43,707 nucleotides of DNA from Bacteroidaceae bacterium (GTDB lineage Bacteria; Bacteroidota; Bacteroidia; Bacteroidales; Bacteroidaceae): positions 1 through 43,707 of the forward strand of contig JAKSIU010000024.1 of assembly GCA_024398615.1 (NCBI GenBank). The letters run 5' to 3'. The notes beneath the pieces were generated by a model, which searched no databases, was not told where the DNA came from, and saw only the letters and a program-made list of their open reading frames with translations. Positions within the stretch are counted from its first letter, which is position 1. Every line of letters starts with the position of its first letter. Shown one piece after another: positions 6,111 to 23,357 of the stretch. The position numbers and the translations under genes are program-made.

Positions 6111-6166
6111 GCCGAACAGGGGACAGGTTCCGTTCAGGCTTGAACGGAACCTGTCCCCTGTTCGGC
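6111..6166. repeat. Paired REP: perfect 26-bp inverted repeat with 4-base loop
   Basis: The arms 6111-6136 and 6141-6166 are exact reverse complements around the loop GGCT. Each arm contains one REP unit (GAACAGGGGACAGG...CCGTTC), so this is two REPs head to head, like a BIME. It lies between the dehydratase and export genes and supplies the dehydratase's last codons and its TGA stop (6134-6136). No T-run follows, but the stem is strong enough to affect transcription or mRNA decay. Confidence 0.92.
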
Positions 6167-8095
6167 GGCGTCAAGCTGCAGGAAGCGTCCCACCTTGCTT
6201 TTGAACTCGGGGACGATTTCCTTCATCTTGCGGACTATGTTCATGTCGTCATGAGTGAGGGCCAGGGCCATGAGCTCGTCTTCGTTGCGGAGGGCGGTCT
6301 CGTAGTCGTATTCCCTGACTTTGGCGGTCATGATCTTGGGATGTACGGTGGGGATGGTGGTCTCGGAGTCGGTGAGCACCTCTTCATACAGTTTCTCGCC
6401 GTCACGGAGTCCGGTGAACACAATCTCGATGTTCTGGGCTCCGGACAGGCTGATCATGCGCTTGGCAAGGTCCAGTATGCGGACGGGCTTGCCCATGTCG
6501 AAGACGAAGATCTCGCCTCCCTTGCCCATGGTTCCGGCCTCGAGCACAAGCTTGCAGGCCTCGGGGATGAGCATGAAGTAGCGTATTATGTCGGGGTGGG
6601 TGACGGTGACCGGACCGCCTGCCGCAATCTGCTCGCGGAACAGGGGGATGACACTGCCGTTGCTGCCCAGGACGTTGCCGAAACGGGTGGTGACGAACTG
6701 TGTGATGCCCTTGACCTTGCCTTCGACAATGGCCTGGTTCAGGCTCTGGCAGTAGATTTCGCAGATGCGCTTGGAGCAACCCATGACGTTGGCGGGATTG
6801 ACGGCCTTGTCAGTCGATATCATGACGAACTTGCGGGTGCAGTACTTGACGGCAAGGTCGGCTATGATGCGGGTGCCTGCTATGTTGTTGCGGACGGCCT
6901 GGATGGGGTTGTCCTCCATCATGGGCACGTGCTTGTAGGCGGCTGCATGGAAAACGTATTCGGGACGGTACCTGGAGAAGAGCATCTCCATGTGGTCCTG
7001 GTCGGTGATGGAGGCAACAATGGTCTCGCAATGTATGTGCGACAGGTCATTGTACTTGCTGGTGAAGCGGTTCATCCACAGGCGCATGTCGTGCATGGGG
7101 GTCTCGGCTTGGTCAACCAGTATGAGGTCCGATGGTCCGAACTTTGCAATCTGGCGTACCATTTCAGATCCGATGGATCCGGCGGCTCCGGTTATGAGGA
7201 TGCGCTTGCCGGTGAGCATGCGGCCTATGTTTTCCATATCGACCTTTATCTCGTCACGCGGGAGAAGGTCCTCGATCTCGACTTCGTGGAGCTGGCTGGA
7301 GCTGAGCGGACTCTTGCCGTCCCAGACCTGTGCCACGGGGAGCATCATGATGGTGATGCCCGCTTCGATGAGGCCGTCAATGAGCTTCTGGTTGTTGCGG
7401 AAGTCATCGGACTTGAGCGGTGATACAAGGAATATGCGTATTCCGGTCTTGCGGAGTTTGGGCAGGAGCAGGTCGTCGTTCAGAATGACTTTCTTTCCTG
7501 AGAGGAAGGCGCCTGTCATGTCGGGGTCGTCGCTGATGAAGGCCTTGAGGTCGAATTTCTTTCCGGTACTGGTCTTTATGCTGGCCAGGGTGCCTGCAAG
7601 CGCGACTCCGCCCGACCGGGTGCCGTAGATGACCACCGGTACGGCTTCGTGGCCGGAGACGGTCTCGTAGGTTGACTTGATGGTGAGTCTGACGGCCCAC
7701 ATGAGGAAGGTGCCCAGTATGAAGATGGAGAAGAACGAGGCCAGACCGGGTATTTCAACGGCTTTCCAAGTGACTGCCAGGCCCAGCAGACCTGATGCCA
7801 GACTGCCTAGAAGCATGGCCATGGAGATGCGCCCCAGGTCAGCATATGATGAGAACCGGATAAGGCAGCTGTAGGTGTGGAACAGACGGAAGGCAATTAT
7901 GTAGAAGGGCAGACAAAGGCACATTCCGGCTACCATCTGCCAGAAATGGCCGGCGGTCCAGTTGCCTCCGTTCTTGACGTATCCGTCCAGAAGCCCGCAG
8001 AACAGGACTATGCAGCAGTCAATGAAGAGAACGCACCAATAGGGAAGCGCCTTCTTAGTAAAATACCAGTCGGTGATTTTGTGTAAAATATTCAT
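6134..8095 (-). CDS. Membrane nucleotide-sugar 4,6-dehydratase/epimerase (FlaA1/CapD/WbpM type)
   Basis: A 653-residue inner-membrane enzyme expected to make a 4-keto-6-deoxy UDP-sugar for the surface polysaccharide. Four N-terminal membrane helices (within about residues 15-130) precede a first Rossmann domain (VVIYGTRSGG, about 175) and a catalytic SDR domain with the NAD motif ITGAAGSIGSE (about 305) and the signature STDKAVNPANVMGCSKR (about 430). The start at 8095 (MNILHKITDW) fits a promoter box 28 bases upstream; an earlier ATG at 8140 lies upstream of that box. The last residues, EQGTGSVQA, are encoded by a REP and are not part of the family fold. Confidence 0.92.
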   Translation of the reverse strand: MNILHKITDWYFTKKALPYWCVLFIDCCIVLFCGLLDGYVKNGGNWTAGHFWQMVAGMCLCLPFYIIAFRLFHTYSCLIRFSSYADLGRISMAMLLGSLASGLLGLAVTWKAVEIPGLASFFSIFILGTFLMWAVRLTIKSTYETVSGHEAVPVVIYGTRSGGVALAGTLASIKTSTGKKFDLKAFISDDPDMTGAFLSGKKVILNDDLLLPKLRKTGIRIFLVSPLKSDDFRNNQKLIDGLIEAGITIMMLPVAQVWDGKSPLSSSQLHEVEIEDLLPRDEIKVDMENIGRMLTGKRILITGAAGSIGSEMVRQIAKFGPSDLILVDQAETPMHDMRLWMNRFTSKYNDLSHIHCETIVASITDQDHMEMLFSRYRPEYVFHAAAYKHVPMMEDNPIQAVRNNIAGTRIIADLAVKYCTRKFVMISTDKAVNPANVMGCSKRICEIYCQSLNQAIVEGKVKGITQFVTTRFGNVLGSNGSVIPLFREQIAAGGPVTVTHPDIIRYFMLIPEACKLVLEAGTMGKGGEIFVFDMGKPVRILDLAKRMISLSGAQNIEIVFTGLRDGEKLYEEVLTDSETTIPTVHPKIMTAKVREYDYETALRNEDELMALALTHDDMNIVRKMKEIVPEFKSKVGRFLQLDAAEQGTGSVQA

Positions 8096-8122
8096 GATAA
8101 TCCTATCGTGTTTTTGAGGAGA

Positions 8123-8130
8123 CAAAATTA
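8123..8130 (-). promoter_or_regulatory. -7 box for the dehydratase gene
   Basis: Reads TAATTTTG on the minus strand, matching TAnnTTTG, 28 bases before the chosen ATG at 8095. It supports the shorter start. Confidence 0.55.
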
Positions 8131-8180
8131 AGCCTTTCAATCGGATTGACCGCTCTTTTTGTCATTTATTTTGACGAGAC

Positions 8181-8460
8181 GAACAGGGGACAGGTTCCGT
8201 TCGGGAACTGACGGTATCGCCCGGGGCACTTTCCAGGGGGGCATTCCGCGAGGGAACCATTTCTTCATTTCCCGCGAGCGAACCATTTCACGGGAATCAA
8301 TCGTGACAGAATGTAGCGTTTATGTCACGATTGATTTGCGCCAATTGTGATGCTCAACAGAGGGAAAATGGTTCGCACCTGCGTACCCCCGCCAGAAGGC
8401 CTTCTGAGCGGGTTTTTCGTTGGTGTGGCGAAAATGCTCCCGCTGGCTTTCCGCGAGTGT
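8181..8460 (+). repeat. Composite repeat, copy A (REP plus two-hairpin element)
   Basis: The stretch opens with a REP (8181-8202), continues with a conserved segment GGGAACTGACGG..ATCGCCCGG, then CCCGCGAGCGAACCATTTC motifs. A hairpin follows (arms 8295-8308 and 8323-8336, AATCAATCGTGACA), then a strictly conserved spacer, then a terminator-like stem (8388-8412) with T5. It matches copy B (10976-11260) nearly base for base in the same orientation, so the GH2 gene lies between direct repeats. This fills the gene-free stretch 8096-8495 apart from two promoters. Confidence 0.88.
8388..8417 (+). terminator. Terminator-like hairpin with T5 in repeat copy A
   Basis: CCCGCCAGAAGG pairs with CCTTCTGAGCGGG (one bulged A) and is followed by TTTTT. 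The same stem recurs in copies B and C with changes that keep pairing. No gene on the plus strand ends just upstream, so it would end a transcript arising inside the repeat itself. Confidence 0.6.
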
Positions 8461-8473
8461 GTCTCCTTTTCTT

Positions 8474-8481
8474 TACTTTTG
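8474..8481 (+). promoter_or_regulatory. -7 box for the GH2 gene
   Basis: TACTTTTG matches TAnnTTTG and ends 14 bases before the ATG at 8496, leaving a very short leader; the next in-frame ATG (8511) would give a more usual spacing. Confidence 0.55.
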
Positions 8482-8495
8482 CAAGTAAGAAATCT

Positions 8496-11006
8496 ATGAA
8501 ACGACTTGATATGAAGATAAATTTCCGCTTTGGACTGATGGCTTCTTGCTTTGGACGGATGGCTTTGCTGATGGGGGGCCTTTTCTTTACGGGCTTTCCT
8601 GCAGGGGGCGGTCTGATGGCCAGGGAGAGCCGTTGGGACTTTGGCAGTGACTGGAGGTTCATCCAGAAGGACGTGACGCTCCGGGAGACGGAGAATGCCT
8701 GGAACACCGAACGTACCATGTGGGGCGGTGGGACGCTCCCTGGCGGTGGAACGGTCCTTGGTGGTGAAACGGTCCGGAGCAATGGCTGGAGGACTGTGGA
8801 TCTGCCCCATGACTGGAGCATCAAGGGGGAGTTCAGCAAGGATAACCCGACCGGTCAGGGTGGATGGCTGCCTGCCGGAGTGGGGTGGTATGTCAAGGAA
8901 TTCGAGTATGGTCCAATCAATCCCCGTGACAGGCGGGTGTTCCTGCAGTTCGATGGCGTGATGTCACACAGCACGGTCTATGTGAACGGTCATGAGGTGG
9001 GGACACGGGCCAACGGGTATGCATCGTTCTGCTATGATGTGAGTGATTTCGTGAACAGGGACGGGCTGAACCGTGTGGCTGTGAGGGTGGACAACAGCGT
9101 GCAGCCGGCATCGCGCTGGTACACCGGATGCGGCATTAACCGCAGGGTGCAGCTGCTGTACAAGAACGATGTGCACATTCCGTATCAGGGTGTATTTGCG
9201 CATTATGACGATTCGCTGGGGCAGGTGTGTTTCGAGGTTCAGGTCTGCAACAGGTCCAGTAGGGTGCAGAAGTTCCGTCTGGAGCTGGAAGTGCCTGACG
9301 ACAGGCGGATTTCGGGAAAGCGCGTGAGGCTGGAGCCGGGAGAGGAACTGCATTATGAGTTCCGTTTCAAGGCCGATGGACTGGCCTGGTGGTCGCCTGA
9401 GAATCCTGCCCGTCATGTGGCTTTTGTCCGTGTGAAGCAGGGCCGCACCACTCTGGATGAGGAGAGGACGGAATTCGCCATACGTACAATAAGGTTCGAC
9501 CGGGAGTCGGGTTTCTGGCTGAACGGAAGGAACATGAAGATGTATGGGGTGTGTCTGCATTCCGATGCCGGTGCGCTGGGTACGGTGTCGCATGAGAACC
9601 TGTGGGTTGACCGTCTCCGTGAGCTGAAGAAGCTGGGCGTCAATGCGATAAGGTGGGCGCACAACATTCCCGATCCCAATCTGCTGGAGCTGTGTGACCG
9701 TCTGGGGCTTCTGGTCATGGTAGAGTCGTTTGACACGTGGGAATCGGCCAAACCGCATGCCGAGAAGGGCTACAATCTGGATTTCCGCGACAACTGGCGC
9801 ATTGACACCGAAGACATGGTCAAGAGTGCCCGCAACCATCCGTGTGTGGTCATCTACAGTGTGGGCAATGAGATACGCGACAATCTGAACAATGAGGACG
9901 GCTTCCGTAAGTACCGCCAGCAGCAGGATCTGATTCATGAGCTGGACCCCACAAGGCCCGTGACCATGGCTCTGTTCCGGCCGAATTCATCGGGCGTATA
10001 CAGGAACGGATTTGCCGAGATAATGGATGTGGTGGGGCAGAACTACCGTGTGGACGAGCTCAAGGCTTACCATGAGCAGCATCCCGAGAAAGCAATCATA
10101 GGGACCGAGAATACGCATGACATCCAGTCGTGGCTGGCGTTGCGAGACGACCCGTCCCTGTGCGGCCAGTTCCTGTGGACCGGCATTGAGTATCTGGGTG
10201 AGGCCGAGTGGCCGCAGGTGTCATGGAATACGGCCCTGCTGGACATTACCGGTGCCGTGAAGCCGCTGGGCCTGCAGCGCAAGAGCTGGTGGACCTCCGA
10301 GCCGATGGTTGCGTTCGCCCGCCGCAGTGCCGGAAACGGTACGGGCGAGCTGCTGCTGGACTGGACTCCGGCCGACCCCGACAACTACCGTATGGCCGTG
10401 GTGGAGGTGTATTCGAACTGTCAGGAGGTGGAGTTGCTGCTGAACGGCCGCTCCCTTGGCCGCCAGCCAATGAAGTCCGATGCCCGTCCCGCCATCTACA
10501 GCTTTGAATACGAACCGGGAGAGCTGCTGGCCCGCGGCTACAATCCTGGTGGTGCTGGAGTTCCTGGAATCGCTGGGGTTTCTGGTGATGCTGGCGTTTC
10601 TAGAGTTACTGGTGCTTCAGGGGTTTCTGGAGTTTCCGGAGTTGTAGCTGAGTACCGACAGGTGACGGCTGGTGAGCCGTACGCTTTGAAACTGTCCTGT
10701 GACTGGGTTAATAAGGTGACAGCCAGTGTTGTGGACCGCAATGGCAATCTGTGTCCCAATGCCGTTTATCCCGTGACTTTCAGCGTGACTCCCGGTCCGC
10801 ATGTCCCGAATCTGGCAATTGTGGCCACTGACAATGCCGACCCGTTTGACCATTCCGCCCACAAGTCCCTGACCCATGACACCTGGCGCGGTTCATGCGT
10901 TGCCTACAGTCTGTACCCCTTCGATGACGCCACAGTGACCGCCACAGCCCCCGGTCTGCTCCCCGCGAACAGCGCGAACAGGGGACAGGCTCCGTTCGGG
11001 AACTGA
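8496..11006 (+). CDS. Secreted GH2 family glycosidase (beta-galactosidase-like)
   Basis: An 836-residue exported enzyme with a hydrophobic N-terminus (residues 10-38). It has the GH2 sugar-binding domain (RWDFGSDWRF, then WRTVDLPHDWSIKGEF), an Ig-like domain and a TIM barrel with likely acid/base E459 (YSVGNEI) and nucleophile E538 (IIGTENTHD); the 79-residue spacing fits GH2. C-terminal beta domains follow. Two low-complexity inserts stand out: WGGGTLPGGGTVLGGETV (residues 76-93) and a collagen-like Gly-x-x run at about 683-714. The protein ends NRGQAPFGN, encoded by a REP. An upstream in-frame ATG (8322) is inside the repeat and precedes the promoter, so it was not used; 8511 is an alternative start. 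Substrate not resolved. Confidence 0.9.
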   Translation: MKRLDMKINFRFGLMASCFGRMALLMGGLFFTGFPAGGGLMARESRWDFGSDWRFIQKDVTLRETENAWNTERTMWGGGTLPGGGTVLGGETVRSNGWRTVDLPHDWSIKGEFSKDNPTGQGGWLPAGVGWYVKEFEYGPINPRDRRVFLQFDGVMSHSTVYVNGHEVGTRANGYASFCYDVSDFVNRDGLNRVAVRVDNSVQPASRWYTGCGINRRVQLLYKNDVHIPYQGVFAHYDDSLGQVCFEVQVCNRSSRVQKFRLELEVPDDRRISGKRVRLEPGEELHYEFRFKADGLAWWSPENPARHVAFVRVKQGRTTLDEERTEFAIRTIRFDRESGFWLNGRNMKMYGVCLHSDAGALGTVSHENLWVDRLRELKKLGVNAIRWAHNIPDPNLLELCDRLGLLVMVESFDTWESAKPHAEKGYNLDFRDNWRIDTEDMVKSARNHPCVVIYSVGNEIRDNLNNEDGFRKYRQQQDLIHELDPTRPVTMALFRPNSSGVYRNGFAEIMDVVGQNYRVDELKAYHEQHPEKAIIGTENTHDIQSWLALRDDPSLCGQFLWTGIEYLGEAEWPQVSWNTALLDITGAVKPLGLQRKSWWTSEPMVAFARRSAGNGTGELLLDWTPADPDNYRMAVVEVYSNCQEVELLLNGRSLGRQPMKSDARPAIYSFEYEPGELLARGYNPGGAGVPGIAGVSGDAGVSRVTGASGVSGVSGVVAEYRQVTAGEPYALKLSCDWVNKVTASVVDRNGNLCPNAVYPVTFSVTPGPHVPNLAIVATDNADPFDHSAHKSLTHDTWRGSCVAYSLYPFDDATVTATAPGLLPANSANRGQAPFGN

Positions 11007-11260
11007 CGGCATCGCCCGGAGCACTTTCCCGCGTCCATTCCCGCGTCCATCCCGCGAGCGAACCATTTTATTCCCGCGAGCGAACCATTTCACAGGAATC
11101 AATCGTGACAAAACATGGCGTTTTTGTCACGATTGATTTGCGTCAATTGTGATGCTCAACAGAGGGAAAATGGTTCGCACCTGCGTACCCCCGCTAGAAG
11201 GCCTTCTGGGCGGGTTTTTCATTGAGCGGCGGATGGTGCTCCCGCGTGCTTCCCGCGAGT
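10976..11260 (+). repeat. Composite repeat, copy B (REP plus two-hairpin element)
   Basis: Same order as copy A: REP 10976-10997, a conserved tail segment, two CCCGCGAGCGAACCATTT motifs, hairpin arms 11097-11113 and 11122-11138 (17 bp, loop CATGGCGT), conserved spacer, terminator-like stem 11190-11214 with T5. The REP part encodes the last residues and stop of the GH2 gene. With copies A and C and the palindrome downstream, it accounts for most of the 800-base gene-free stretch 11007-11807. Confidence 0.9.
11190..11219 (+). terminator. Terminator-like hairpin with T5 in repeat copy B
   Basis: CCCGCTAGAAGG pairs with CCTTCTGGGCGGG (T-G pair, one bulged G), followed by TTTTT. It lies about 185 bases after the GH2 stop and could end the GH2 transcript as well as a repeat-internal one. 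Confidence 0.65.
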
Positions 11261-11440
11261 GAACCATTTCACAGGAATCAATCGTGATAAAACATGGCGT
11301 TTTTGTCACGATTGATTTGCGTCAATTGTGATGCTCAACAGAGGGAAAATGGTTCGCACCTGCGTACCCCCGCCAGAAGGCCTTCTGGGTGGGTTTTTCG
11401 TAGGGTGGCGGAAAGTGCGCCCGCGTGCTTCCAGCTTGCG
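11252..11440 (+). repeat. Two-hairpin repeat, copy C (no REP part)
   Basis: Begins CCCGCGAGTGAACCATTTCAC and repeats the hairpin (arms 11276-11292 and 11301-11317), the conserved spacer and the terminator-like stem directly after copy B. In the first hairpin C is replaced by T opposite G, which keeps a wobble pair in RNA. The tail then decays into related GCGAACCATTTC motifs to about 11460. Confidence 0.88.
11369..11398 (+). terminator. Terminator-like hairpin with T5 in repeat copy C
   Basis: CCCGCCAGAAGG pairs with CCTTCTGGGTGGG (G-T wobble, one bulged G) followed by TTTTT. Third member of the set at 8388 and 11190. Confidence 0.62.
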
Positions 11441-11475
11441 AACCATTTCATTCCCGCGATGAAACCCGCGATATT

Positions 11476-11662
11476 GTTTTCTGGTGGTGGTAGGGCGGAG
11501 GGGACTGTTCGCGGAAAGACCGGAAAAGCTTGGGTGGGATCCGGACCGATGAGAAGCGCGGCTGTATGAGCGGCTTGCCGCGAGTTCCGCGCTTCCGGTA
11601 CGGATGCCACACAAGCCGGTCTTGGAGAGCCAGTCCCCTTCGCCCTGCCACCGCTAGAAAAC
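11476..11662 (+). repeat. Long imperfect palindrome, about 187 bp
   Basis: The outer arms 11476-11506 and 11632-11662 match over 27 of 31 positions, and all four differences are G/A or T/C changes that leave G-U pairs in a plus-strand RNA. The arms continue inward with further matched blocks: AAGACCGG, a 17-of-20 match around CTTGGGTGGGATCCGGACCG, and GAAGCGCGG, broken by small insertions. No open frame of interest is present. It could be a MITE-like element or a structured transcript. Confidence 0.75.
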
Positions 11663-11672
11663 ACTTGTCCCT

Positions 11673-11741
11673 TTCATCGGGAAAAACTTTTCCCCGTTGC
11701 TTCATCGGGAAAAATTTTCCCGTTTTTTCATCGGATAAAAA
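11673..11741 (+). repeat. Three TTCATCGG repeats with short palindromes before the GH43 promoter
   Basis: TTCATCGGGAAAAA starts at 11673 and 11701, and a decayed copy TTCATCGGATAAAAA at 11727 (periods 28 and 26). The first two contain CGGGAAAA...TTTTCCC(C)G palindromes (the second is 11706-11722). They lie 35-105 bases upstream of the GH43 -7 box, so they could be operator sites or weak terminators. Confidence 0.6.
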
Positions 11742-11776
11742 CATACTGCTTCACGGATTACTACCAATTAATTGAT

Positions 11777-11784
11777 TATCTTTA
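11777..11784 (+). promoter_or_regulatory. -7 box for the GH43/CBM32-like gene
   Basis: TATCTTTA, one base off TAnnTTTG, 24 bases before the ATG at 11808. The same context TATCTTTACGGCAA occurs before the second GH43 gene (18095), hinting at shared control. Confidence 0.5.
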
Positions 11785-11807
11785 CGGCAACCTAATTTTC
11801 AACCGTT

Positions 11808-13313
11808 ATGAAGAAAGTCTTGTTGCCGATGCTGGCTGCCGCACTGCTGGCTGTCTCGTGTGGGGTGAAGCAGGAGATTCACAGTTTTGACGCGAATGAG
11901 GGGCGGAGGTACTGCAATCCGCTGCCTATGGTGATAGGTCCGGGCGGCAACGCATCGGGCGATGTGTCGGTGTTGCGCGAGGGCGACACCTATTATATGT
12001 TCTGCACGGGTGGAGGTGCATGGACATCGAAGAACATGCTTGACTGGGAGTTCACGCCCGTACAGCACGTGCCGGTGGCTCCCGATGTGGTGAAGTTCCG
12101 GGACAAGTTCTACATGTCGGGCAATGACTGTCCGCTTTATGTGGCTGACAGCCCTCTGGGACCGTACACGGTGCTCGGGCAGTGGGAGAACACGCCCGAT
12201 GTGGAGGGCGGATGGAACGAGCCGTTCGACATGCACATTTTCATTGACGGGGACCAGCCGTACCTGTTCTACTCGGGCAGGGGGATAAGCGGCATATTCG
12301 GGGTGCCTCTGGATCCGGAGCATCTGAACCGTTTTGCCGACAAGCCGACCCATCTGTTCAGCTTCAACAGCGACCATATCTGGGAGCGCTATGGCGAGAT
12401 GAACGAGTATACCGGTGTGGCATGGATTGAGGGGCCCTGGCTGTTCAAGCTGGGCGACATGTATTACATGGAGTATTCGGCATCGGGCACACAGTGGAAA
12501 ACTTATGCCGAGGGCTACTATACGGCAAAGAATCCGCTGGGGCCTTACACTTATGCCGATAACAGTCCGCTGTTGCGCAAGACCGAAGGGCTGGTTACCG
12601 GTACAGCACACGGCAGTGTGGTCGAGGGGCCCGATGGCGGTCTGTGGCAGTTCTACACCATTGTGCTGTCCAACCCGCCCGGGGGACGCCGCATAGGTAT
12701 GGACCGCATTGATGTGGACAAAAACGGTCAGTGGTCAGTCCGGATAACTGACACTCCGCAGCCGGCACCCGGAGCAAGCGGCACGCTGGAGTCTCTGCCG
12801 GTGACCATCAACAAGATGAACGCAATGAACGCTCTTTCAAGCTTCTCGAGCCAGCAGCCGGGACGTTATGCATCGTACGCCATTGACGACAACAGCGGTA
12901 CGGTGTGGGAGCCGGAGCTGACTGATTCCATGCCTTCGCTGACGATTGAGCTGTCGCCTGCAACGCGCTTTGACGAGGTGCAGCTGTTCAATGTCGATGC
13001 CATACGTCTGATGTTCGGTGGCGGTTCGCGCCGGGGATTCGGTGGCTTTGGCGGTGGCGGACAGGTGTATAAGTATAAGGTGGAGGTGTCAATGGATGGC
13101 GAGAACTGGACCATGGCGCTTGACAGGACCGGCAACACGGAACAGCGCAACACCATTTTCGAGGAGTTCAAACCGGTTGAATGCCGCTTTGTAAGGCTCA
13201 CGGTGACCGGTTGGCCGGGTCAGCAGCTCAGTGTGATAGAGTTCACGGCCTTTGGTCTTCCAAGCAGCACACAGCCTGCCCGTGTGGCCATTCCTCCGGT
13301 CATTCAATATTGA
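11808..13313 (+). CDS. GH43-like secreted glycosidase with C-terminal F5/8-type (CBM32-like) domain
   Basis: A 501-residue lipoprotein (lipobox LLAVSC) with a five-bladed propeller region of the GH43 type (NPLPMVIGPGGNASGDVSVLR, YMFCTGGGAWTSKNMLDW, WNEPFDMHIF, then VEGPDGGLWQFY), pointing to release of arabinose or xylose from plant polysaccharides. Residues about 345-490 resemble a galactose-binding-like domain (TIELSPATRFDEVQLF ... ECRFVRLTVTGW) and carry a Gly/Arg-rich loop, GGGSRRGFGGFGGGG. It overlaps the convergent deacylase gene by 14 bases. The exact GH43 subfamily is not resolved. Confidence 0.82.
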   Translation: MKKVLLPMLAAALLAVSCGVKQEIHSFDANEGRRYCNPLPMVIGPGGNASGDVSVLREGDTYYMFCTGGGAWTSKNMLDWEFTPVQHVPVAPDVVKFRDKFYMSGNDCPLYVADSPLGPYTVLGQWENTPDVEGGWNEPFDMHIFIDGDQPYLFYSGRGISGIFGVPLDPEHLNRFADKPTHLFSFNSDHIWERYGEMNEYTGVAWIEGPWLFKLGDMYYMEYSASGTQWKTYAEGYYTAKNPLGPYTYADNSPLLRKTEGLVTGTAHGSVVEGPDGGLWQFYTIVLSNPPGGRRIGMDRIDVDKNGQWSVRITDTPQPAPGASGTLESLPVTINKMNAMNALSSFSSQQPGRYASYAIDDNSGTVWEPELTDSMPSLTIELSPATRFDEVQLFNVDAIRLMFGGGSRRGFGGFGGGGQVYKYKVEVSMDGENWTMALDRTGNTEQRNTIFEEFKPVECRFVRLTVTGWPGQQLSVIEFTAFGLPSSTQPARVAIPPVIQY

Positions 13314-13839
13314 GCCATTCGTATTCGCCGCCCCAGATTTCAAGGAATTTGAGGAACATGTCATGGGTCAGCACTACACTTGCTGTGTTGTCACATGGGT
13401 GGAAGCTGACCTTTTGGGCTGTCTGCAGTTCGGAGTCAAGGAAATACTTGACCCGATGGCCGTTTTCGAAGAGTTCCTTGGGGTTGGCGCTGTCGGCAAT
13501 GTCCATGTCGTTGATGAGGCCGAACGCACAGACTGATCCGGGCTGGACGCCAAGGCATCGGTCCATGCGCTCGGGACTGGCAAAGCTCAGCTTGCCTTGG
13601 TGGAGCATGTGCTCAAGGGCATGAATGTCAAGGTTCTTGTGGCATTCGAAGCTGACCAGATAGTGGCGGTTGCCCTTGTGGTTCCTGAAGAAAAGGTTCT
13701 TGCAGTGGGTGGCGCTTATGTCCTTCCAGTAGGCCAGGGCGTCTTCAATGGTGGGCAATGGCGGATGGAAATATATTTCGTAGGGTATCTGGTGCGCGTT
13801 GAGCCAGTCCTCGACTTTCTGAATCTTTTCCGATTTCAT
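13300..13839 (-). CDS. YbaK/PrdX-type aminoacyl-tRNA deacylase
   Basis: A 179-residue cytoplasmic protein of the YbaK/ProX fold that hydrolyses mischarged tRNA, probably Ala-tRNA(Pro) or a related species. Family features are EIYFHPPLPTIEDAL at the N-terminus, CKNLFFRNHKGN with the conserved lysine (about residue 48), and the PGSVCAFGLIND core. A -7 box (13860-13867) lies 21 bases upstream. The gene is convergent with the GH43 gene and divergent from the ABC importer. Confidence 0.85.
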   Translation of the reverse strand: MKSEKIQKVEDWLNAHQIPYEIYFHPPLPTIEDALAYWKDISATHCKNLFFRNHKGNRHYLVSFECHKNLDIHALEHMLHQGKLSFASPERMDRCLGVQPGSVCAFGLINDMDIADSANPKELFENGHRVKYFLDSELQTAQKVSFHPCDNTASVVLTHDMFLKFLEIWGGEYEWLNIE

Positions 13840-13859
13840 TGTTCTATAATTACAGTTTG

Positions 13860-13890: not shown

Positions 13891-13908
13891 TGCGTGATTT
13901 ATACGATT

Positions 13909-16152: not shown

Positions 16153-16155
16153 GCC

Positions 16156-17277
16156 ATGATACGTATAGAACATCTTGAAAAGGTCTATTCAGACAGCGGC
16201 CTGCGGGTGCTGACCGATGTCAATGCCGAGATACGTGACGGTGAGGTCATAAGCATCATAGGGCCGTCAGGAACAGGCAAGAGCACTTTCCTGCGTTGCA
16301 TCAACATGCTGGAGCAGCCTACATCGGGTCATATCTGGATTGACAATGCCGATGTAACCGACCCCCGTACGGACATTGCCCATGTGCGCCGTCAGGTGGG
16401 CATGGTGTTCCAGTCGTTCAACCTGTTTGATCATCTGTCAGTGATTGACAATGTGATGGTGGGTCCCATGAAGCTGCTGGGCATGAGTGCTGCCGATGCG
16501 GAGAATCAGGCGCGTGACCTGCTGGACCAGGTGGGCCTGCTGTCAAAGGCCGATGCTTTTCCAAGCCAGCTGAGCGGTGGCCAGAAGCAGCGTGTGGCCA
16601 TAGCCCGATGCCTTTCCATGAACCCCAAGGTGATTCTGTTCGACGAGCCGACATCGGCCTTGGATCCTACTATGGTCAGTGAGGTGCTGCGTGTGATACG
16701 TGACATTGCAAGCCGCGGAATCACCATGCTGATTGTGACGCACGAGATGCAGTTCGCACGCAATGTGTCGACACGTGTTTTCTATATGGATCAGGGAGTG
16801 ATTTATGAGGATGGTACTCCGGAACAGATTTTCGACAATCCGCAGAGGGAGCGTACGCAGATATTCATAAAGCGTGTCCGTTCGGTTTCGAGTCATTTCG
16901 ATTCCCGCAACATTGACCTTTACGGTCTGCTTGGAGACATTCACAATTTCTGCTTCCGCTATGGCCTGGACAGTGAAATGGCAAAGCAGGTGGAGCATGT
17001 CGTGGAAAGGGTGGTGGACAATTGCCTTAACTCTTTGGACGACAAGCGTCAGGCCAAGCTCAAGGCCTGCGGCGGCATGGATTTGGATGTGGCATTCTCA
17101 GAGAAGAGCGGCCATGTGCGCATGCGTCTGCTGGCTCCTATGGAACTGGGACATATCCTGGACCCGGAAACGGTCGAGGGTCAGGCACGTCTGGATGACC
17201 TGCGCTCCGTATGCCAGACCGTTGAACAGGGCATGCACGAGGGACGCCTGCAGCTGTCACTCGGGGTGAACTGTTAG
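16156..17277 (+). CDS. Amino-acid ABC transporter ATPase with C-terminal extension
   Basis: A 373-residue GlnQ-type ATPase powering the fused importer upstream. Walker A GPSGTGKS (36-43), Q-loop (about 86), signature LSGGQ (139-143), Walker B VILFDEP (159-165) and H196 are all intact. The usual fold ends near residue 245; a further 130 residues follow ([15 protein letters not shown] ... LQLSLGVNC) that I do not recognise. The extension is mixed helix and strand, with a segment [19 protein letters not shown], and could be a regulatory or ligand-sensing module. It overlaps the convergent fabI end by 21 bases. Confidence 0.9.
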
Positions 17278-18048
17278 GCCGGTGCTGGAGAAGCCTCCAT
17301 CGTGGTAGAGGTTCTGCATTGTGACTTTGCGGGTGAAGTCCGAGAACAGGGTGCACACGTAGTTGGCGCAGTCCTGAGCATCGGCATTGCCAAGGGGTGA
17401 CACGCTGTCGGCCCACTGGAGCATGCGGTCCATGCCTTCTATGCCCTGGCCGGCTGTGGTGGCTGTGGGGGACTGTGAGACGGTGTTGATGCGCACGTGT
17501 CTCTCGCTGCCGAAAATGACTCCGAAATTGCGGGTGATGGACTGGAGCAGGGCCTTGGCATCGGCCATGTCGTTGTAGCCCCAGATGGCGCGGTCGGCGG
17601 CTATGTAGGTCAGGGCCACTATGGAACCCCATTCGTTCAGGGCATCCTTTTTATACAGGGTCTGCAGCATCTTGTGGAAAGACAGGGCCGATATGTCCAG
17701 GGTCTTGTCCATAAGTGCGTAGTCGATGTCGTTGTAAGGGTGCTTCTTGCGTACGTTGGGCGACATGCCTATGCTGTGAAGCACAAAGTCGAACTTGCCC
17801 CCGAAATGCTCCATGGCACTGTCGGTGAGGCGGGTGAGGTCATCAATGCTGGTGGCATCGGCCTCTATGAAGGGGCAGCCAAGGCTTTCGGCAAGTGCCT
17901 TGGTCTGGCCGAAACGGCCTGCCAGGGCGGTGTTGGTCATGATGATTTCAGCTCCCTGTTCCACTGCGGTCTTCGCTACGTACCAGGCAATTGACTTGTC
18001 GTTGAGCACTCCGGTGATGATTCCCTTTTTTCCTTTTAGAAGTTCCAT
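17257..18048 (-). CDS. fabI: Enoyl-ACP reductase, FabI type
   Basis: A 263-residue SDR enzyme for the last reduction of fatty-acid elongation. The variant NAD motif [15 protein letters not shown] lies near the start (residues 13-27), LHSIGMSP at about 90, and the FabI active-site pattern Y-x6-K is seen as YNDMADAK with the preceding tyrosine in [13 protein letters not shown]. Length and C-terminus ([11 protein letters not shown]) are normal for the family. It has its own promoter box at 18075-18082 and is divergent from the second GH43 gene. Confidence 0.93.
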
Positions 18049-18074
18049 GTCTTTTTGAGGCTTTTGTCCACTGG

Positions 18075-18102
18075 CAAAATTAGGAAAAATACACTATCTT
18101 TA
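18075..18102. promoter_or_regulatory. Divergent -7 boxes: fabI (-) and GH43 (+)
   Basis: CAAAATTA at 18075-18082 is TAATTTTG on the minus strand, 27 bases from the fabI ATG. TATCTTTA at 18095-18102 on the plus strand is 21 bases before the GH43 ATG and is followed by CGGCAA as at 11785. Confidence 0.55.
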
Positions 18103-18122
18103 CGGCAAATACAATCAGCAAA

Positions 18123-19688
18123 ATGAAGAAACTGACATCTCTCATCCCAATGCTGGGACTTTCGCTGGCCGCTCTGGCACAGAATCCTTACATGCCGCTT
18201 TGGGAATACATTCCCGATGGTGAACCGTATGTGTTTGAAGATCCGGACAAACCGGGCAATTACCGTGTGTATGTGTACGGGTCGCATGACAATGAGATCA
18301 CGCAGTACTGCGGCAGGGACCAGGTGGTGTGGTCGGCTCCGGTCGATGACCTGACGGACTGGCGCTATGACGGCATTATTTTCGAGTCGCAGGGTGACAT
18401 ACTGTACGCTCCGGACATTGCAACCGTAAAGCAGATTGACGGTTCGGTCAAGTACTATCTGTATCCGAACAATCAGAGCGGAGGCCGCCAGAGCCAGGTG
18501 TGTGTGAGCGACCGTCCGGACGGACCGTTCGAGGTCTGCAACCGGAATGCCCGGAACCCGCGCAGGACAGACGGCATTCTGGGATTTGACCCGGCCGTGT
18601 TCGTTGACGATGACGGGCGCGTGTACGGCTACTGGGGCTTCGAGGAGTCCAACGGAGCCGAACTGGACCCTGCTACCATGGCCAGCGTGAAGCCGGGAAC
18701 GGAGATTGTGAAGAATATGGTATCGGACTACAAGCATGATGGGGTGTTCAGGTTCTTCGAGGCATCGTCCATGCGCAAGATCCAGGACAAGTATGTGTTC
18801 ATATATTCGCGTTATACGTCCGATGGAGAGGATGGTCTGCCGGCATCGAACAACACTCTGGCTTATGCATACAGTGACAACCCTCTGGGACCGTTCACTT
18901 ATGGCGGTACCATTATCGATGCCCGTGAACCGGCTGTGAACGCGCATTCCGGACAGGCCATTGCTACGGCCAACCGCTATGGCAATACGCACGGCAGCAT
19001 TGTGGAGATTAACGGACAGTGGTGGGTGTTCTATCACCGTCAGACTGGAACGGACCAGTTCTCGCGTCAGGCCATGGTGGCTCCCATTACGGTCAAGGTC
19101 CAGAAGGGCAAGGGCGGCAAGGTGGAGATTTCACGTGCCGAGGTCACATCGGAGGGCTTCCGTACCGAAGGACTGAATCCGCTGGAACGTATTGCGGCAG
19201 GCTGGGCATGCTGGTTCAACCATCCGTCGACTCCGGTCGAAAAATATCCGAATTTCATCTACAGCGGCTCGTATGTGCAGCCTACACGTCTGGAAGAGGG
19301 CTCCTATCAGGGACCTTATAACATGAAGGTGCCTTTCTGCCCGCTTGTGAACAACACTCAGGGCAGTACGGTGGGATTCAAGTACATTGACTTCGACAAG
19401 TTGGCAAAGAAGAAGACCGTGAATCTTGAGATGCGCGTGAAGCTTCATGGCGAGAGCGGCAGGATATGCGTTATGGTTGACGATCCGACTGCAGAGAAGG
19501 GTGCCCGTGTCATTGCTGAATTCAATCTTGATCAGATAAAGACCGATGGGATGACGACCATTACGACCCATTGCTACAATGATCTGAAGGGAATAAAGGG
19601 TAAGGGCAAGAGAGGTCTGTATTTCAGGTTCGATGCTGTCAACCCCGGCAAGTCCATGTGTGACTTCTATGATTTCCGTTTCTTCTGA
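18123..19688 (+). CDS. Secreted GH43-like glycosidase
   Basis: A 521-residue exported protein with a Sec signal peptide (MKKLTSLIPMLGLSLAALAQ). The propeller domain of the GH43 type spans about residues 22-330 (GEPYVFEDPDKPGNYRVYVYGSHD, LYAPDIATVKQ, GFDPAVFVDDDGRVYGYWG, FEASSMRKIQDKYVFIYS, NTHGSIVEINGQWWVFYHR). A beta-rich C-terminal domain follows (IYSGSYVQPTRL onward), probably a carbohydrate-binding module. Expected to act on arabinoxylan or arabinan side chains; specificity not resolved. The nadE start is 12 bases downstream. Confidence 0.88.
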   Translation: MKKLTSLIPMLGLSLAALAQNPYMPLWEYIPDGEPYVFEDPDKPGNYRVYVYGSHDNEITQYCGRDQVVWSAPVDDLTDWRYDGIIFESQGDILYAPDIATVKQIDGSVKYYLYPNNQSGGRQSQVCVSDRPDGPFEVCNRNARNPRRTDGILGFDPAVFVDDDGRVYGYWGFEESNGAELDPATMASVKPGTEIVKNMVSDYKHDGVFRFFEASSMRKIQDKYVFIYSRYTSDGEDGLPASNNTLAYAYSDNPLGPFTYGGTIIDAREPAVNAHSGQAIATANRYGNTHGSIVEINGQWWVFYHRQTGTDQFSRQAMVAPITVKVQKGKGGKVEISRAEVTSEGFRTEGLNPLERIAAGWACWFNHPSTPVEKYPNFIYSGSYVQPTRLEEGSYQGPYNMKVPFCPLVNNTQGSTVGFKYIDFDKLAKKKTVNLEMRVKLHGESGRICVMVDDPTAEKGARVIAEFNLDQIKTDGMTTITTHCYNDLKGIKGKGKRGLYFRFDAVNPGKSMCDFYDFRFF

Positions 19689-19700
19689 TTCTTGTGCGTT

Positions 19701-20480
19701 ATGGATTACAATGAACTGAAAGACAGGTGTGTAGAGTGGATAAGGGGGTGGTTCCAAGCGAATGGTCCCAAGTGTACTGCCGTGTTGGGGATGAGCGGCG
19801 GCAAGGACAGCACGATTGCGGCTGCCTTGTGCGCTCTGGCTCTCGGTCCCGAACGGGTGGTGGGCGTGAGCATTCCATCGACCGGTCAGAGTCTGAATGA
19901 GGCCGATGAGATTTGCCGCCATCTTGGCATACGCTATGTGAACATGCCTATTGGACCGGTTGAGGATTCGTTCCGTGCTCTCGGTCCCAACATGAATGAT
20001 ATGGGGGTCGACGGGTTTACGGCCCAGACCATTCTGAACATTCCGCCAAGAATACGCATGACCGTGCTGTATGCTGTGGCACAGAGCTGCAACGGCATGG
20101 TGGCCAACACCTGCAACCTGAGCGAGGATTACATAGGGTATGCCACTCTGTTCGGCGATGCCAGCGGATCGTTCTCACCTCTTGGCAAGCTGTGCGTGCG
20201 CGAGGTCCGCGGGATAGGACATACGCTTGGTCTTCCTTCGCGTTGGGTGGACAAGATTCCCGATGACGGTCTGCCCGGCTCATGTCCTGACGAGACCAAG
20301 TTCGGTTTCAGCTACGATACTCTGGACAGTTATATCCGCGAGGGTGTGTGCGATGATGCGGATGTGCGGGCTAAGATTGAGTCGATGCATCGTCGTAACC
20401 TGTTCAAACTGGAGATCCTGCACATTCCTGCCTTTGATCCGGGCTTCCCGGTCCATGATCCGCTCCGTCAAGACGCCTGA
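19701..20480 (+). CDS. nadE: NH3-dependent NAD synthetase
   Basis: A 259-residue enzyme that amidates deamido-NAD. The ATP-pyrophosphatase P-loop SGGKDST is at residues 32-38, and NTCNLSEDYIGYATLFGDASGSFSPLG is a clear family signature. There is no glutaminase domain, so ammonia is the donor. ATG 19701 was preferred over a TTG at 19692. The stop overlaps the next start (TGATG), implying translational coupling. Confidence 0.93.
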   Translation: MDYNELKDRCVEWIRGWFQANGPKCTAVLGMSGGKDSTIAAALCALALGPERVVGVSIPSTGQSLNEADEICRHLGIRYVNMPIGPVEDSFRALGPNMNDMGVDGFTAQTILNIPPRIRMTVLYAVAQSCNGMVANTCNLSEDYIGYATLFGDASGSFSPLGKLCVREVRGIGHTLGLPSRWVDKIPDDGLPGSCPDETKFGFSYDTLDSYIREGVCDDADVRAKIESMHRRNLFKLEILHIPAFDPGFPVHDPLRQDA

Positions 20481-21733
20481 TGACGATGACCGTCCCGACT
20501 GAAGCGACATGGGATTTCATTGAAGCCAACCTTGAGGCCGATGTGCGCAGGCTGGCTCTTTCCAAGGCTCCTCAGAACGTTGATCTGAAGGCGGCTCTGG
20601 TCCAGATTGCGGGCCGTCAGGTTGCCGTGTCCAAACTGCCGTCATGGGCGGCTGTCCCGCGTCTGCTTTATCCCGTCCATCTGTCAATGGAACAGTGTAC
20701 CAGTCAGGCTGTGGCCGGCTACAAGGCTGCGCTTGTGCGGGAATGGATGACGGATACTCCGGCTTTCCGCTTTGCCGATCTGACGGGTGGTTTCGGCGTT
20801 GATTGCGTGTTCCTTTCAAGTGGCTGCGGGGCGTGTCATTATAACGAAATGAATGCCGGTCTGTGCGGCATCGCGGCTGTGAACTTCCCTCTGCTGGGAC
20901 GCAGTGAGATAAGGATTACCAATGGGGAGGCATCGGCTTTTCTGGAGCAGATGGGGCCCGACAGCCTTGATCTGGTTTATCTTGACCCGGCCAGGAGGGA
21001 TGCGTCGGGCCACAAGCTGGTCTCTATTGCCGACTGCAGTCCCGATGTTGCGGCCATGCAGTCCCGTTTGCTGGAGGTGTCGCCCAGAGTGCTGGTCAAA
21101 TTGTCTCCGATGCTTGACATAAGCAAGGTCTTGGGCGAGCTTTCATGCGTGTCACGTGTCATGGCCATAGCGGTCGAAGGGGAATGCAAGGAGCTGCTGG
21201 TTTTTCTTGAGAGGGGCTTTGAACATGAGCCGCTTGTCCAGGCTGTCGGTCTGGACGGTTCCGGCATTCCGGGTCCGGTCCTTTCGGCCACTGTCAGCGA
21301 AGAGCGCAACTCACCGCTGTCAATGGATGCGGACGGGACGTTGCTTGCTCCCGGCAACTGCCTTTATGAACCGGATGCCGCTGTCATGAAGAGCGGTCTG
21401 TTCCACACTCTTTCCAACCGGTGGAATGTGGCTCAGGTGGGACCGGACTCGCATCTGTTCGTGTCATCGGAACCTGTGAGCGGATTTCCCGGCCGTGTTT
21501 TCCGCATTGAACGTGTGGTGCCTTTCGACAAGCGGCATGCAGGGGCTTTCTTCAGTGAAATAGGCAAGGCCAACATTGCGGTCCGCAATTTTCCCCTGAC
21601 TGTCAGCGAGCTGCGGCAGCGCTTCAAGGTCAGTGACGGCGGCTCCCACTACGTCTTTGCCACCACCTCAGGCACCTCAAGGCAGAAGGTCCTGATTGAC
21701 GCGAACAGGGGACAGGTTCCGTTCACAACTTAG
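20480..21733 (+). CDS. SAM-dependent methyltransferase with THUMP-like domain
   Basis: A 417-residue protein of the class I methyltransferase type seen in Bacteroidetes. The SAM-binding motif DLTGGFGVD is at residues 100-108, and a YLDPARRD motif near 168 could be catalytic. The C-terminal part (RVFRIERVVPF ... NIAVRNFPLTVSELRQRF) resembles the THUMP-like domain attached to this group; an RNA substrate is likely but unproven. It is coupled to nadE. The protein ends NRGQVPFTT, encoded by a REP, and overlaps the convergent RAYT gene by 11 bases. Confidence 0.8.
   Translation: MTMTVPTEATWDFIEANLEADVRRLALSKAPQNVDLKAALVQIAGRQVAVSKLPSWAAVPRLLYPVHLSMEQCTSQAVAGYKAALVREWMTDTPAFRFADLTGGFGVDCVFLSSGCGACHYNEMNAGLCGIAAVNFPLLGRSEIRITNGEASAFLEQMGPDSLDLVYLDPARRDASGHKLVSIADCSPDVAAMQSRLLEVSPRVLVKLSPMLDISKVLGELSCVSRVMAIAVEGECKELLVFLERGFEHEPLVQAVGLDGSGIPGPVLSATVSEERNSPLSMDADGTLLAPGNCLYEPDAAVMKSGLFHTLSNRWNVAQVGPDSHLFVSSEPVSGFPGRVFRIERVVPFDKRHAGAFFSEIGKANIAVRNFPLTVSELRQRFKVSDGGSHYVFATTSGTSRQKVLIDANRGQVPFTT
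21703..21724 (+). repeat. REP unit, left boundary of the RAYT unit
   Basis: GAACAGGGGACAGG...CCGTTC in the plus orientation. It encodes the last residues of the THUMP-like protein and touches the stop codon of the RAYT gene (21723-21725). Together with the inverted unit at 22643 it brackets the transposase gene. Confidence 0.9.
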
Positions 21734-22520
21734 AAATCGTTGCCACTCCCATTCCGCTGATTCTGGCCAGTTGCCGCACTCCGGCGCCAAGCGCTCGAAT
21801 TTTGGCGCAGGCGTCTTTGCGTTCTTTTATTGACTGTCGCTGAAATTCTGCGATAGAATTGCATCGGCTCGCTTCCAGAAGTTTTTCGCGCACGTAAGAA
21901 TCGGTCATTAAGACCTTTACGGCTATATCGCTTTCATCAATGTCAATGAAGTTGTGTTCCGATGGCTTGGCGTCGACTAACATTGCCTGTAAATCGGAAA
22001 GCGATACATCTGACAGTGCAAAGCCGATGTCGCAAATGTTGTCAGTCGTCGGGCTGAGGTATTCGTGCCAGGATGACCATCTGTATTCGTTTGCGTTTCG
22101 GACAATTCCGGCTTTTACAGGATTTTGATGGATGTATCTTATAAGCTCGATGAAATAATTCCGGTCTTCGACAGGCTCGCTTTTGAAGCGCTCTTGAAAC
22201 AGGTGTCCGACGCGGCAGTGGTATCGGTTGTAATAGAATACGTAACGTGAGGCCAAAGTCTTGATCAGGTCTGCGATTGTCATGTCGGCTTCTTGAATTA
22301 GCAGGTGCAAGTGATTGCCCATGAGATAGTAAGCATAGATCTTGCAACAATTGTCGGAGATTATGTGGCCCAGGTCATCGAACTTGATGTGAAGGTCTGA
22401 CAGTATTTCCAACATTTGGATATAGTCATCTCCCGTTTCAAAAATCTGCTGACGATTGATTCCTCTCAGCATGATGTGGTATATGCCACTTTGTGATGTT
22501 TTTCTTGCTTTTCTTGGCAT
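21723..22520 (-). CDS. REP-associated tyrosine transposase (RAYT, Y1_Tnp family)
   Basis: A 265-residue IS200-like Y1 transposase. The start MPRKARKTSQSGIYHIMLRG is typical. The metal-binding HUH motif is NHLHLL (H70, H72), and candidate catalytic tyrosines Y122 and Y129 lie in NYFIELIRYIHQNPVKAGIV. A C-terminal helix-turn-helix (VRQLARISGMGVATI) closes the protein. RAYTs are single-copy relatives of transposases that act on REP sequences; here inverted REPs lie on both sides (21703-21724, 22643-22664). The start at 22520 was preferred over an upstream ATG at 22577 because the family begins there. The stop comes from the REP edge. Confidence 0.9.
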   Translation of the reverse strand: MPRKARKTSQSGIYHIMLRGINRQQIFETGDDYIQMLEILSDLHIKFDDLGHIISDNCCKIYAYYLMGNHLHLLIQEADMTIADLIKTLASRYVFYYNRYHCRVGHLFQERFKSEPVEDRNYFIELIRYIHQNPVKAGIVRNANEYRWSSWHEYLSPTTDNICDIGFALSDVSLSDLQAMLVDAKPSEHNFIDIDESDIAVKVLMTDSYVREKLLEASRCNSIAEFQRQSIKERKDACAKIRALGAGVRQLARISGMGVATISKL

Positions 22521-22566
22521 AAGAATTATGTGTTTGAATGCGGCAGTTGTTACCGTCGTTGTATCG

Positions 22567-22616
22567 CAAAAATACAAAATATCATTAGTCGGCGGGTATC
22601 ACTTTTCGCAAAATTA
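22567..22616 (-). promoter_or_regulatory. Candidate -7 boxes for the RAYT gene
   Basis: On the minus strand TATTTTTG (22567-22574) and TAATTTTG (22609-22616) both match TAnnTTTG, 47 and 89 bases before the RAYT start. Which is used cannot be told. Confidence 0.35.
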
Positions 22617-23357
22617 TAACGGGTTGGTGTAAATTGTGTCGCGAACGGGGCCTGTCCCCTGTTCGGAGGTGTTGGAATAGTCGCGGTGGCCGAAGATGGC
22701 CGAGCCTATGCGGACCATGTTGCTGCCGGCCTGAATGGCCAGGTCATGGTCGTCGCTCATGCCGGCCGAGATGATCCGGAATTCCGGGTCCGATGCGAAC
22801 CACCTGGATTTGAATTCGTTGAAGAGACTGACAAGGGTCTGGAATTCCTGCAGGACCTGGGACTGGTCATCGGTGTTGGTGGCCATGCCCATGACTCCGG
22901 CAATCTGCACGTTGTCAAGACTCTGCCACTGTCCTTCGGCAAGCATCTGACGGACGGCATCGGGGGTGAAGCCGAACTTGCTCTCTTCCCGGGCTACGTG
23001 AATCTGAAGCAGACAGCGTATGGTGCGGCCGCATTTCTTTGCCTGACGGTCAACTTCGGCCAGGGCTTCGAAGGAGTCAATGCCTTGAATGACACTGACG
23101 TACGGGGCCATTATCCTGATCTTGTTCTTCTGGACATGACCTATGAAATGCCATTCTATGTCTTTGGGCAGTTCACTCTGCTTGGCGGTCATTTCCTGGA
23201 CTTTGTTTTCTCCGAACAGACGCTGCCCGGCATTGTAGGCAGCCTGTATGGCGCTTGTCGGGTGGGTCTTTGAAACAGCAACCAGCTGCACGCTTTGCGG
23301 CAGCCGGTTCCTGGTTTCTATAAGTCTTGCAGATATCTCTTTTTCAGTCAGTTCCAT
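22614..23357 (-). CDS. YggS family pyridoxal-phosphate homeostasis protein
   Basis: A 247-residue cytoplasmic PLP-binding protein of the alanine-racemase N-terminal fold, without racemase activity in known members. The PLP lysine is K30 in LVAVSKTHP; GENKVQE, EWHFIGHVQKNK, SKFGF and ISAGMSDDHDLAIQAGSNMVRIGSAIFG are family blocks. The normal C-terminus is IFGHRDY; the remaining residues (NTSEQGTGPVRD...) are encoded by the REP at 22643 and beyond. The ATG at 23357 overlaps the GH9 stop (TAATG), so it is coupled to that gene. Confidence 0.92.
   Translation of the reverse strand: MELTEKEISARLIETRNRLPQSVQLVAVSKTHPTSAIQAAYNAGQRLFGENKVQEMTAKQSELPKDIEWHFIGHVQKNKIRIMAPYVSVIQGIDSFEALAEVDRQAKKCGRTIRCLLQIHVAREESKFGFTPDAVRQMLAEGQWQSLDNVQIAGVMGMATNTDDQSQVLQEFQTLVSLFNEFKSRWFASDPEFRIISAGMSDDHDLAIQAGSNMVRIGSAIFGHRDYSNTSEQGTGPVRDTIYTNPL
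22643..22664 (-). repeat. REP unit, right boundary of the RAYT unit
   Basis: On the minus strand GAACAGGGGACAGG...CCGTTC with CC in place of TT in the 3' half, which strengthens its internal hairpin. It is inside the 3' end of the yggS reading frame and inverted relative to the REP at 21703. Confidence 0.9.

Follow-up and report, generated by a model that had tools for sequence, protein, structure and literature searches.

The repeat with the core GAACAGGGGACAGG codes the C-termini of several unrelated genes in an uncultured Bacteroidaceae bacterium, and it is probably the terminal inverted repeat of a TIRtron/TIRYT-type element that carries a Y1 transposase. We analysed a 43,707-nt contig (JAKSIU010000024.1, assembly GCA_024398615.1; the whole contig is hereafter the window) together with its source assembly (the own genome; 2.456 Mb, 72 contigs, 81.7% complete) and related genomes. 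In the explanation that we consider likely, head-to-head pairs of the repeat are gene-less forms of the element, copies survive at gene 3′ ends through selection and probably also targeting, and the protein tails are mostly by-products. What we describe is a known kind of element, TIRYT-type palindromes, in unusually tight packing at 3′ ends.

Repeat cores and repeat-coded tails

In the window, the core occurs in six exact copies (6114+, 6150−, 8181+, 10976+, 21703+ and 22651−), as the initial annotation had counted. With up to two mismatches allowed, 0.39 copies are expected, and six were reached in 0/100 shuffles. The 22-nt form GAACAGGGGACAGGNNCCGTTC is exact at 6/6 of the copies. Inspection of this form found zero stop codons across all six frames, so that the stops of the tails have to be supplied by the flanks or the loop. 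The copies at 6114 and 6150 form the two arms of a 56-bp palindrome (6111-6166); these 26-nt arms are 100% complementary, and the TGA of the dehydratase gene lies at the junction of loop and second arm. The copy at GH2 sits within a 55-bp direct repeat whose other copy lies upstream of GH2 (8180-8234 versus 10975-11029; 95%). A single transposase cassette, located between the convergent THUMP-like and YggS genes, is bounded by the copies at 21703 and 22651.

As had been annotated, four unrelated genes take their last residues from four of the copies; each of these copies is in sense orientation, and two frames are used within the window. The resulting tails are ANRGQAPFGN-stop (GH2), ANRGQVPFTT-stop (THUMP-like), AAEQGTGSVQA-stop (dehydratase) and SEQGTGPVRDTIYTNPL-stop (YggS). 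The shared orientation had been used as an argument, and sense orientation indeed holds for all four. However, the convergent THUMP-like and YggS genes owe their tails to a single inserted cassette, and their matching orientation therefore counts as one event and not two. The window thus holds about three independent events, and with so few the orientation argument from the window alone is weak.

Searching the own genome gave 52 perfect matches to the 14-mer and, with ≤3 mismatches, 59 cores matching the 22-nt form; a reversed-pattern control gave 0 matches in both searches. Two 3-mismatch matches inside genes (L090 and L091) were excluded before counting. The remaining 57 cores group into 36 elements, namely 21 head-to-head (+/−) pairs and 15 singles. 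Nine well-supported genes end inside or just past an element, and three frames are in use. The EQGTG frame is read in tex, a SIS protein gene, clpB, the dehydratase gene and yggS (plus a weak open reading frame (ORF) in L066), the NRGQ frame in the GH2 and THUMP-like genes, and the RTGDR frame in apbC and an ABC ATPase gene (L071, L078). The two-frame rule proposed from the window therefore does not extend to the genome. Pairs with a 6-nt loop form a ready-made EQGTG(S/T)VQA-stop cassette, which is found in the dehydratase, tex and SIS protein genes as well as in the weak ORF of L066. A further gene, at L085, stops at a TGA in which a T is completed by the two opening bases of the core. Among sense-facing ends in the own genome, 10/41 read into the element, the weak ORF being one of the ten.

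Comparison with orthologues covered six sets (YggS, THUMP-like, dehydratase, Tex, ApbC and ClpB), and in all six the relatives were without the tails, which had initially been described as extra to the protein folds. The tail was absent at 29/29 relative loci for YggS, at 29/29 for the THUMP-like protein and at 29/29 for ApbC (the latter two sets each with one locus ending at a contig edge), at 19/19 for the dehydratase, and at the 27/27 tex loci with a C-terminus out of 29 loci. For ClpB, where the comparison consists of two alignments plus some orthologue rows, it was absent in both aligned relatives. Some of the tail-free loci have another repeat family nearby, and relatives of GH2 differ too much at the C-terminus for a clean comparison. 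In clpB, the last nine residues of the relatives are replaced by the repeat with the length nearly unchanged. Where own apbC has the pair, its counterpart in the related genome G034 has its final seven codons and its stop, together with a T-run hairpin (seen by eye). These data demonstrate that the coding tails are real and repeat-borne. The rewriting of the C-termini of conserved proteins (ClpB, ApbC, Tex and YggS) holds even if the elements are ordinary mobile repeats, and it is relevant to annotation and to C-terminal tagging.

The transposase and the identity of the element

The cassette encodes a 284-aa protein that matches Y1_Tnp (PF01797; E = 4e-10, 40.2 bits, cutoff 23) and carries the HUH motif NHLH and the catalytic tyrosine motif YIHQNP. 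NCBIfam REP_Tyr_transpos scored 61.6 bits, below its cutoff of 80. Weak matches in the PDB were 8fjf_A ‘H10’ (E = 0.001, residues 161-218) and 4er8_A, TnpA-REP (E = 0.005). A scan for a C-terminal helix-turn-helix (HTH) gave no Bac_DnaA_C, HTH_23 or HTH_28, just HTH_Tnp_IS1 at E = 0.1 (12.7 bits, cutoff 24.9), and PADLOC returned no match for the transposase. Both repeats flanking the gene contain a GGGGWSAS-type motif, GGGGACAG, and the cassette ends (21703+ and 22651−) have the same +/− arrangement as the 21 genomic pairs. Furthermore, a 66%-identical transposase in the related genome G027 has the same repeat on its flanks. The best matches in twenty other genomes of the genus have 35-51% identity. 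Other transposase lineages of the genus have other inverted repeats: of 27 loci whose flanks were read, 22 share ≥12 nt in inverted orientation between the two sides of the gene, in most cases around a core of GGGGAC or GGGGTC type.

The initial annotation had called the repeat a repetitive extragenic palindrome (REP) and the enzyme a REP-associated tyrosine transposase (RAYT). This identity was not borne out: the 5′ GT[AG]G tag that marks the foot of the hairpin in such repeats was looked for in all 57 cores plus 6 nt of flank to either side, and it was found as GTAG in 0 and as GTGG in 1. The repeat fits a TIRYT-type terminal repeat (GGGGWSAS, ‘TIRtron/TIRYT’) better than a GTAG REP. TIRtrons are described as a Y1 transposase gene with terminal inverted repeats that carry the motif GGGGWSAS, in moderately abundant families with many dimers (Di Nocera et al. 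2013, PMC3733652). Like the elements in that account, ours have a Y1_Tnp transposase between GGGGWSAS inverted repeats and occur as dispersed singles and dimers; they differ in their uncultured Bacteroidaceae host, in pairs with identical arms, in the strong packing at stops and in tails compared with orthologues. TIRtrons are tied in PMC6006769 to the Y1 subclass 2.1 of that source, to which they probably correspond. The motifs NH[LIV]H and YIH[QN]NP given there (Table 1) for subclass 2.6 of Bacteroidetes match NHLH and YIHQNP, and that subclass is likewise described with atypical repeats without GT[AG]G and with further copies in the genome. However, its median length is 179 aa, compared to 284 aa here, and the likeness is one of motifs, not of position in a reference tree.

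The head-to-head pairs also resemble REPINs, for which inverted doublets in one hairpin, compensatory changes and a Y1 transposase in the vicinity are described (Bertels and Rainey 2011, PMC3116915; PMC2817692). In contrast to these, our repeat lacks the GT[AG]G tag, and two single cores fold at just −5.9 and −11.2 kcal/mol. The arms are identical in 21/21 pairs though the arm sequence varies by site, and 0/20000 permutations were as good. The palindrome reaches about 3 bp beyond the core into flanks that differ by site: the first three outer positions were complementary in 20, 17 and 15 of the 21 pairs, compared to 9.7, 7.4 and 6.9 in permutations, and the total outer extension was 58 versus 18. 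In the sister genome G011, which has other repeat families, the outer-flank palindrome is weaker, as no single position was significant and identical outer triplets were found at 15/23 versus a mean of 9.3 in within-family shuffles (p = 0.0008).

With ≤2 mismatches, we found the repeat in 7 of the 61 searched genomes, and these seven belong to a single genus. A search of the named GTDB collection, from which the own genome was possibly excluded, gave 50 stretches, of which 45 belong to metagenome-assembled genomes of horse-faeces Bacteroidaceae and the remainder to one Legionella record, two Prevotella records and two from an uncultured bacterium. Contigs G014:C73, G024:C97, G027:C7, G027:C39, G030:C1, G030:C43 and G030:C87 have copies no farther than about 120 bp from their first base, as would result from assemblies breaking at the repeat.

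In relatives, tex has Y1 transposases from two distinct lineages as neighbours (L231 in G021 and L253 in G016), and the own tex 3′ end also bears an element. An old home of the transposase at tex was considered and rejected, since the tex-adjacent enzymes of G016 and of G005, G013 and G021 are not sisters in the tree (mixed support).

Packing at gene 3′ ends

Genes were called with a simple home-made codon-based caller, and the elements were compared to random intergenic points in the same repeat-bearing stretches, an expectation that depends on the gene calls. Elements <200 bp from the end of a stretch were left out, which kept 36/36 in the own genome, 21/23 in G030, 21/23 in G027 and 51/52 in G011; the G011 sample is the listed part of its 162 cores, minus one site. 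In the own genome, 28/36 elements lie over or within 30 bp of a stop, compared to 8.9% expected (p = 7e-23), whereas 0/36 lie within 30 bp of a start, with 13.5% expected. The same bias towards stops was seen in G030 (11/21), G027 (10/21) and, with its other families, G011 (39/51), with 8-10% expected over the four genomes. In addition, seven orthologue sets served as a control across the genus: cores were found at 34/334 non-query 3′ ends and 1/328 non-query 5′ ends, at 3/180 query 5′ ends and in 0/514 mid-gene windows. As for the claim of an insertion preference for, or selection at, gene 3′ ends, the bias is thus strong, and either insertion preference or purifying selection may underlie it.

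Single copies facing a gene 3′ end were in sense at 32 and in antisense at 10 when four genomes were pooled (own 9/3, G030 7/5, G027 6/0, G011 10/2). Among the 36 own elements, 24 are clear of every called coding sequence (CDS), 10 run over the end of one and 2 are contained within one. The initial annotation had set its reading against a mostly intergenic distribution with random orientation; the elements are indeed mostly intergenic, but their orientation is not random. Elements at matching gene ends in several species looked frequent for tex (8/28) and THUMP-like (7/27). This was rejected as a separate pattern, since the seven orthologue sets, when pooled, gave 24/178 (13.5%) compared to 34/334 (10.2%) for other genes at the same loci.

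Closeness to 3′ ends is known from other repeats. REPs between convergent genes are reported to lie mostly <20 bp from both 3′ ends, their GTAG termini supply TAG stops, and slightly >10% of repeats are placed at the ends of coding regions (PMC3733652). Such GTAG/CGTC REPs share with our repeat the closeness to 3′ ends and the repeat-supplied stops. They belong to another repeat class, and here the stop is T/GAAC or lies in the loop, or abuts the repeat in relatives. Peptides added by mobile repeats, either through fusion with the 3′ end of a gene or through an in-frame location within genes, are also described for ERIC/RU-1 (PMC2759123, where fusion of an ERIC unit appears to have removed a normal stop) and for Rickettsia palindromic elements (PMC10969869); these elements are longer, and the likeness is by description and not by sequence.

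In our favoured explanation, a Y1-transposase element of TIRYT/TIRtron type would have this repeat at its inverted termini, and the palindromic pairs would be its gene-less versions, similar to miniature inverted-repeat transposable elements. The transposase would spread the copies, and these would persist mostly at gene 3′ ends because selection removes insertions in genes and promoters; the transposase probably also has some preference for sequences at stop codons. Where a copy of this family falls within the last few codons, translation would run on into the element as far as the first stop that it meets, in many cases one in the loop, and so produce a tail coded by the repeat. Such tails are most likely tolerated by-products.

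Several points weigh against this explanation. No gene 3′ end lies inside 60 bp for 7/36 own elements, and two own elements (L072 and L083) are in frame inside genes. The related genome G030 (98% complete; L256-L275) has 30 copies of the repeat, and its nearest transposase has 23% identity. Mobilisation by this transposase is something that we infer, as is the balance of targeting and selection, and the in-frame fit to stops in G011 is tighter than selection alone easily explains.

The two intragenic elements differ in form. L083 (4033-4093) is a palindromic pair in frame inside an M56/BlaR-like gene, where about 20 residues are added near the N-terminal part. L072 (3987-4008) is a single one-mismatch core in frame inside an ArsP_2-type permease gene.

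Alternative explanations and the stop-codon register

The palindromes might instead be kept as RNA elements at 3′ ends, where the hairpin would block exonucleases or aid two-way termination between convergent genes, an alternative to which we give tentative credence. Two pairs fold into very stable hairpins, at −55.9 kcal/mol (z −11.5; the pair at 6111-6166) and −65.2 kcal/mol. Moreover, 20/21 pairs lie ≤33 bp from or over a stop codon, the lone exception being L083 within the M56-peptidase-like gene, and for 11/21 there is on either side a stop that is overlapped or no more than 21 bp away. The replacement of the G034 apbC end with its T-run hairpin by a pair also fits an RNA role, as do the identical arms, but the latter follow equally from recent spread or hairpin-templated copying. 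Against an RNA role, the repeat (≤2 mismatches) is absent from 30/36 other genomes of the same genus. Counting T residues in the 20 nt that follow the element gave at least five at 3/43 own gene ends and at 10/54 in G011. Control genes with TTTTT within 60 nt of the stop were also few (17/160 own, 29/128 in G011), so that scarce U-tracts are weak evidence against a terminator. A classical intrinsic terminator is thus unsupported by a weak test, and a role as terminator or in RNA stability may exist.

A second alternative, which we also hold to be possible rather than probable, is that the elements target stop codons. The transposase would recognise a stop-like motif, which in several families is AAAYRR ahead of the repeat, and insertion just behind the stop or in register with it would spare the protein. 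In G011, the stop exactly abuts the repeat at 26/45 gene-facing ends and 1/45 reads through; for this count, L493 had no gene calls and its nine ends were entered as facing no gene. A stop lies 4, 6 or 7 nt before GGGG at 31/52 sense-facing gene ends of that genome. In other relatives we found 55 distinct core-bearing 3′ ends, 39 with the sense core first and 16 with the antisense core first. Among the former, to which the distance count is limited, the core begins −1 to 7 nt from the stop at 20/39, in several families. Example junctions are AAATGA/TACAAAAGGGG (also written AAATGA/TAC..) and TGA/CAAAGGGG. Element-bearing tex genes of relatives end 3-5 residues past RQRISL in 8/8, within the usual range, as loci without a detected core end at 3-12. 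Element-bearing apbC has its usual length in 4/5, but the fifth (L357 in G016) ends well before the usual place. A stop-like triplet is also present where no stop abuts (TGA at 10/12 such CAAA ends and a stop triplet at 7/22 such TACC ends in G011), and it may therefore partly belong to the repeat. The family of the window, on the other hand, shows no such register, since its stops lie at scattered distances or within the element. A target motif, a built-in stop and later loss of a spacer may each account for the register in G011.

A wider proposal, which we regard as rather doubtful, is that Y1-transposase elements throughout the genus home to stop codons. The junction motif would coincide with Lys-stop at gene ends and insertion would be in register, with several elements at both stops of convergent genes and native terminators replaceable; the family of the window would lack the edge stop and so write new tails. 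In the open-access literature searched, we came upon no description of such elements keeping a register with stop codons. If the register is a property of targeting, mobile DNA could enter packed genomes without breaking genes, and these elements would help to explain the build-up of palindromes at 3′ ends in terms of selection versus insertion preference. The genus supplies many repeat families and element-free orthologues for testing the register, and the in-frame fit to stops in relatives deserves testing.

That the tail itself is selected, for instance as a protein-stability tag plus stop, is very improbable. EQGTG(S/T)VQA-stop is common to three good genes and the weak ORF, but three frames are used, tails differ between genes, most elements touch no called CDS (24/36), and reading through is nearly absent from the gene-facing ends of G011. 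The idea of the repeat as a selected tail-and-stop unit is not supported by these data. Chance, or an artefact of over-long reading frames, is practically negligible: the gene caller is home-made and one tail (L066) sits on a weak ORF, but Pfam matches are present for all four window genes as well as for ApbC, SIS, Tex, the ABC ATPase and ClpB (none for L085), and both the empty reversed-pattern control and the 3′ bias speak against chance.

Table 1. Repeat copies, tailed genes and transposase in the window
Feature	Position	Strand	Remark
Palindromic pair (two inverted cores, 26-nt arms, 4 nt between)	6111..6166		codes EQGTGSVQA and stop of dehydratase
Polysaccharide biosynthesis (epimerase/dehydratase) gene	6134..8140	−	repeat-coded C-terminus
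Single core	8180..8203	+	between dehydratase and GH2 starts; opens 55-bp direct repeat
GH2 gene	8322..11006	+	repeat-coded C-terminus; true start probably downstream of 8322
Single core	10975..10998	+	codes last residues of GH2; in second copy of 55-bp direct repeat
THUMP-like gene	20480..21733	+	repeat-coded C-terminus
Terminal repeat of transposase cassette	21702..21725	+	codes last residues of THUMP-like; overlaps transposase stop
Y1 (IS200-like) transposase	21723..22577	−	284 aa; motifs NHLH and YIHQNP
YggS gene	22614..23441	−	repeat-coded C-terminus
Other terminal repeat of cassette	22643..22665	−	codes part of YggS C-terminal tail

Rfam at the gathering threshold gave no match in the window. 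Other repeats were also observed there. A 191-nt repeat in three copies (86-90% alike) flanks GH2 at 8269-8459, 11071-11261 and 11250-11440. The called GH2 start falls within this repeat and the best relatives align only from about residue 149, which is why the true start probably lies further downstream. Short direct repeats are found at 2762-2855, at the 3′ end of a large minus-strand gene (2694-5249), and closely spaced direct repeats of about 102-183 nt lie at 1507-1981.

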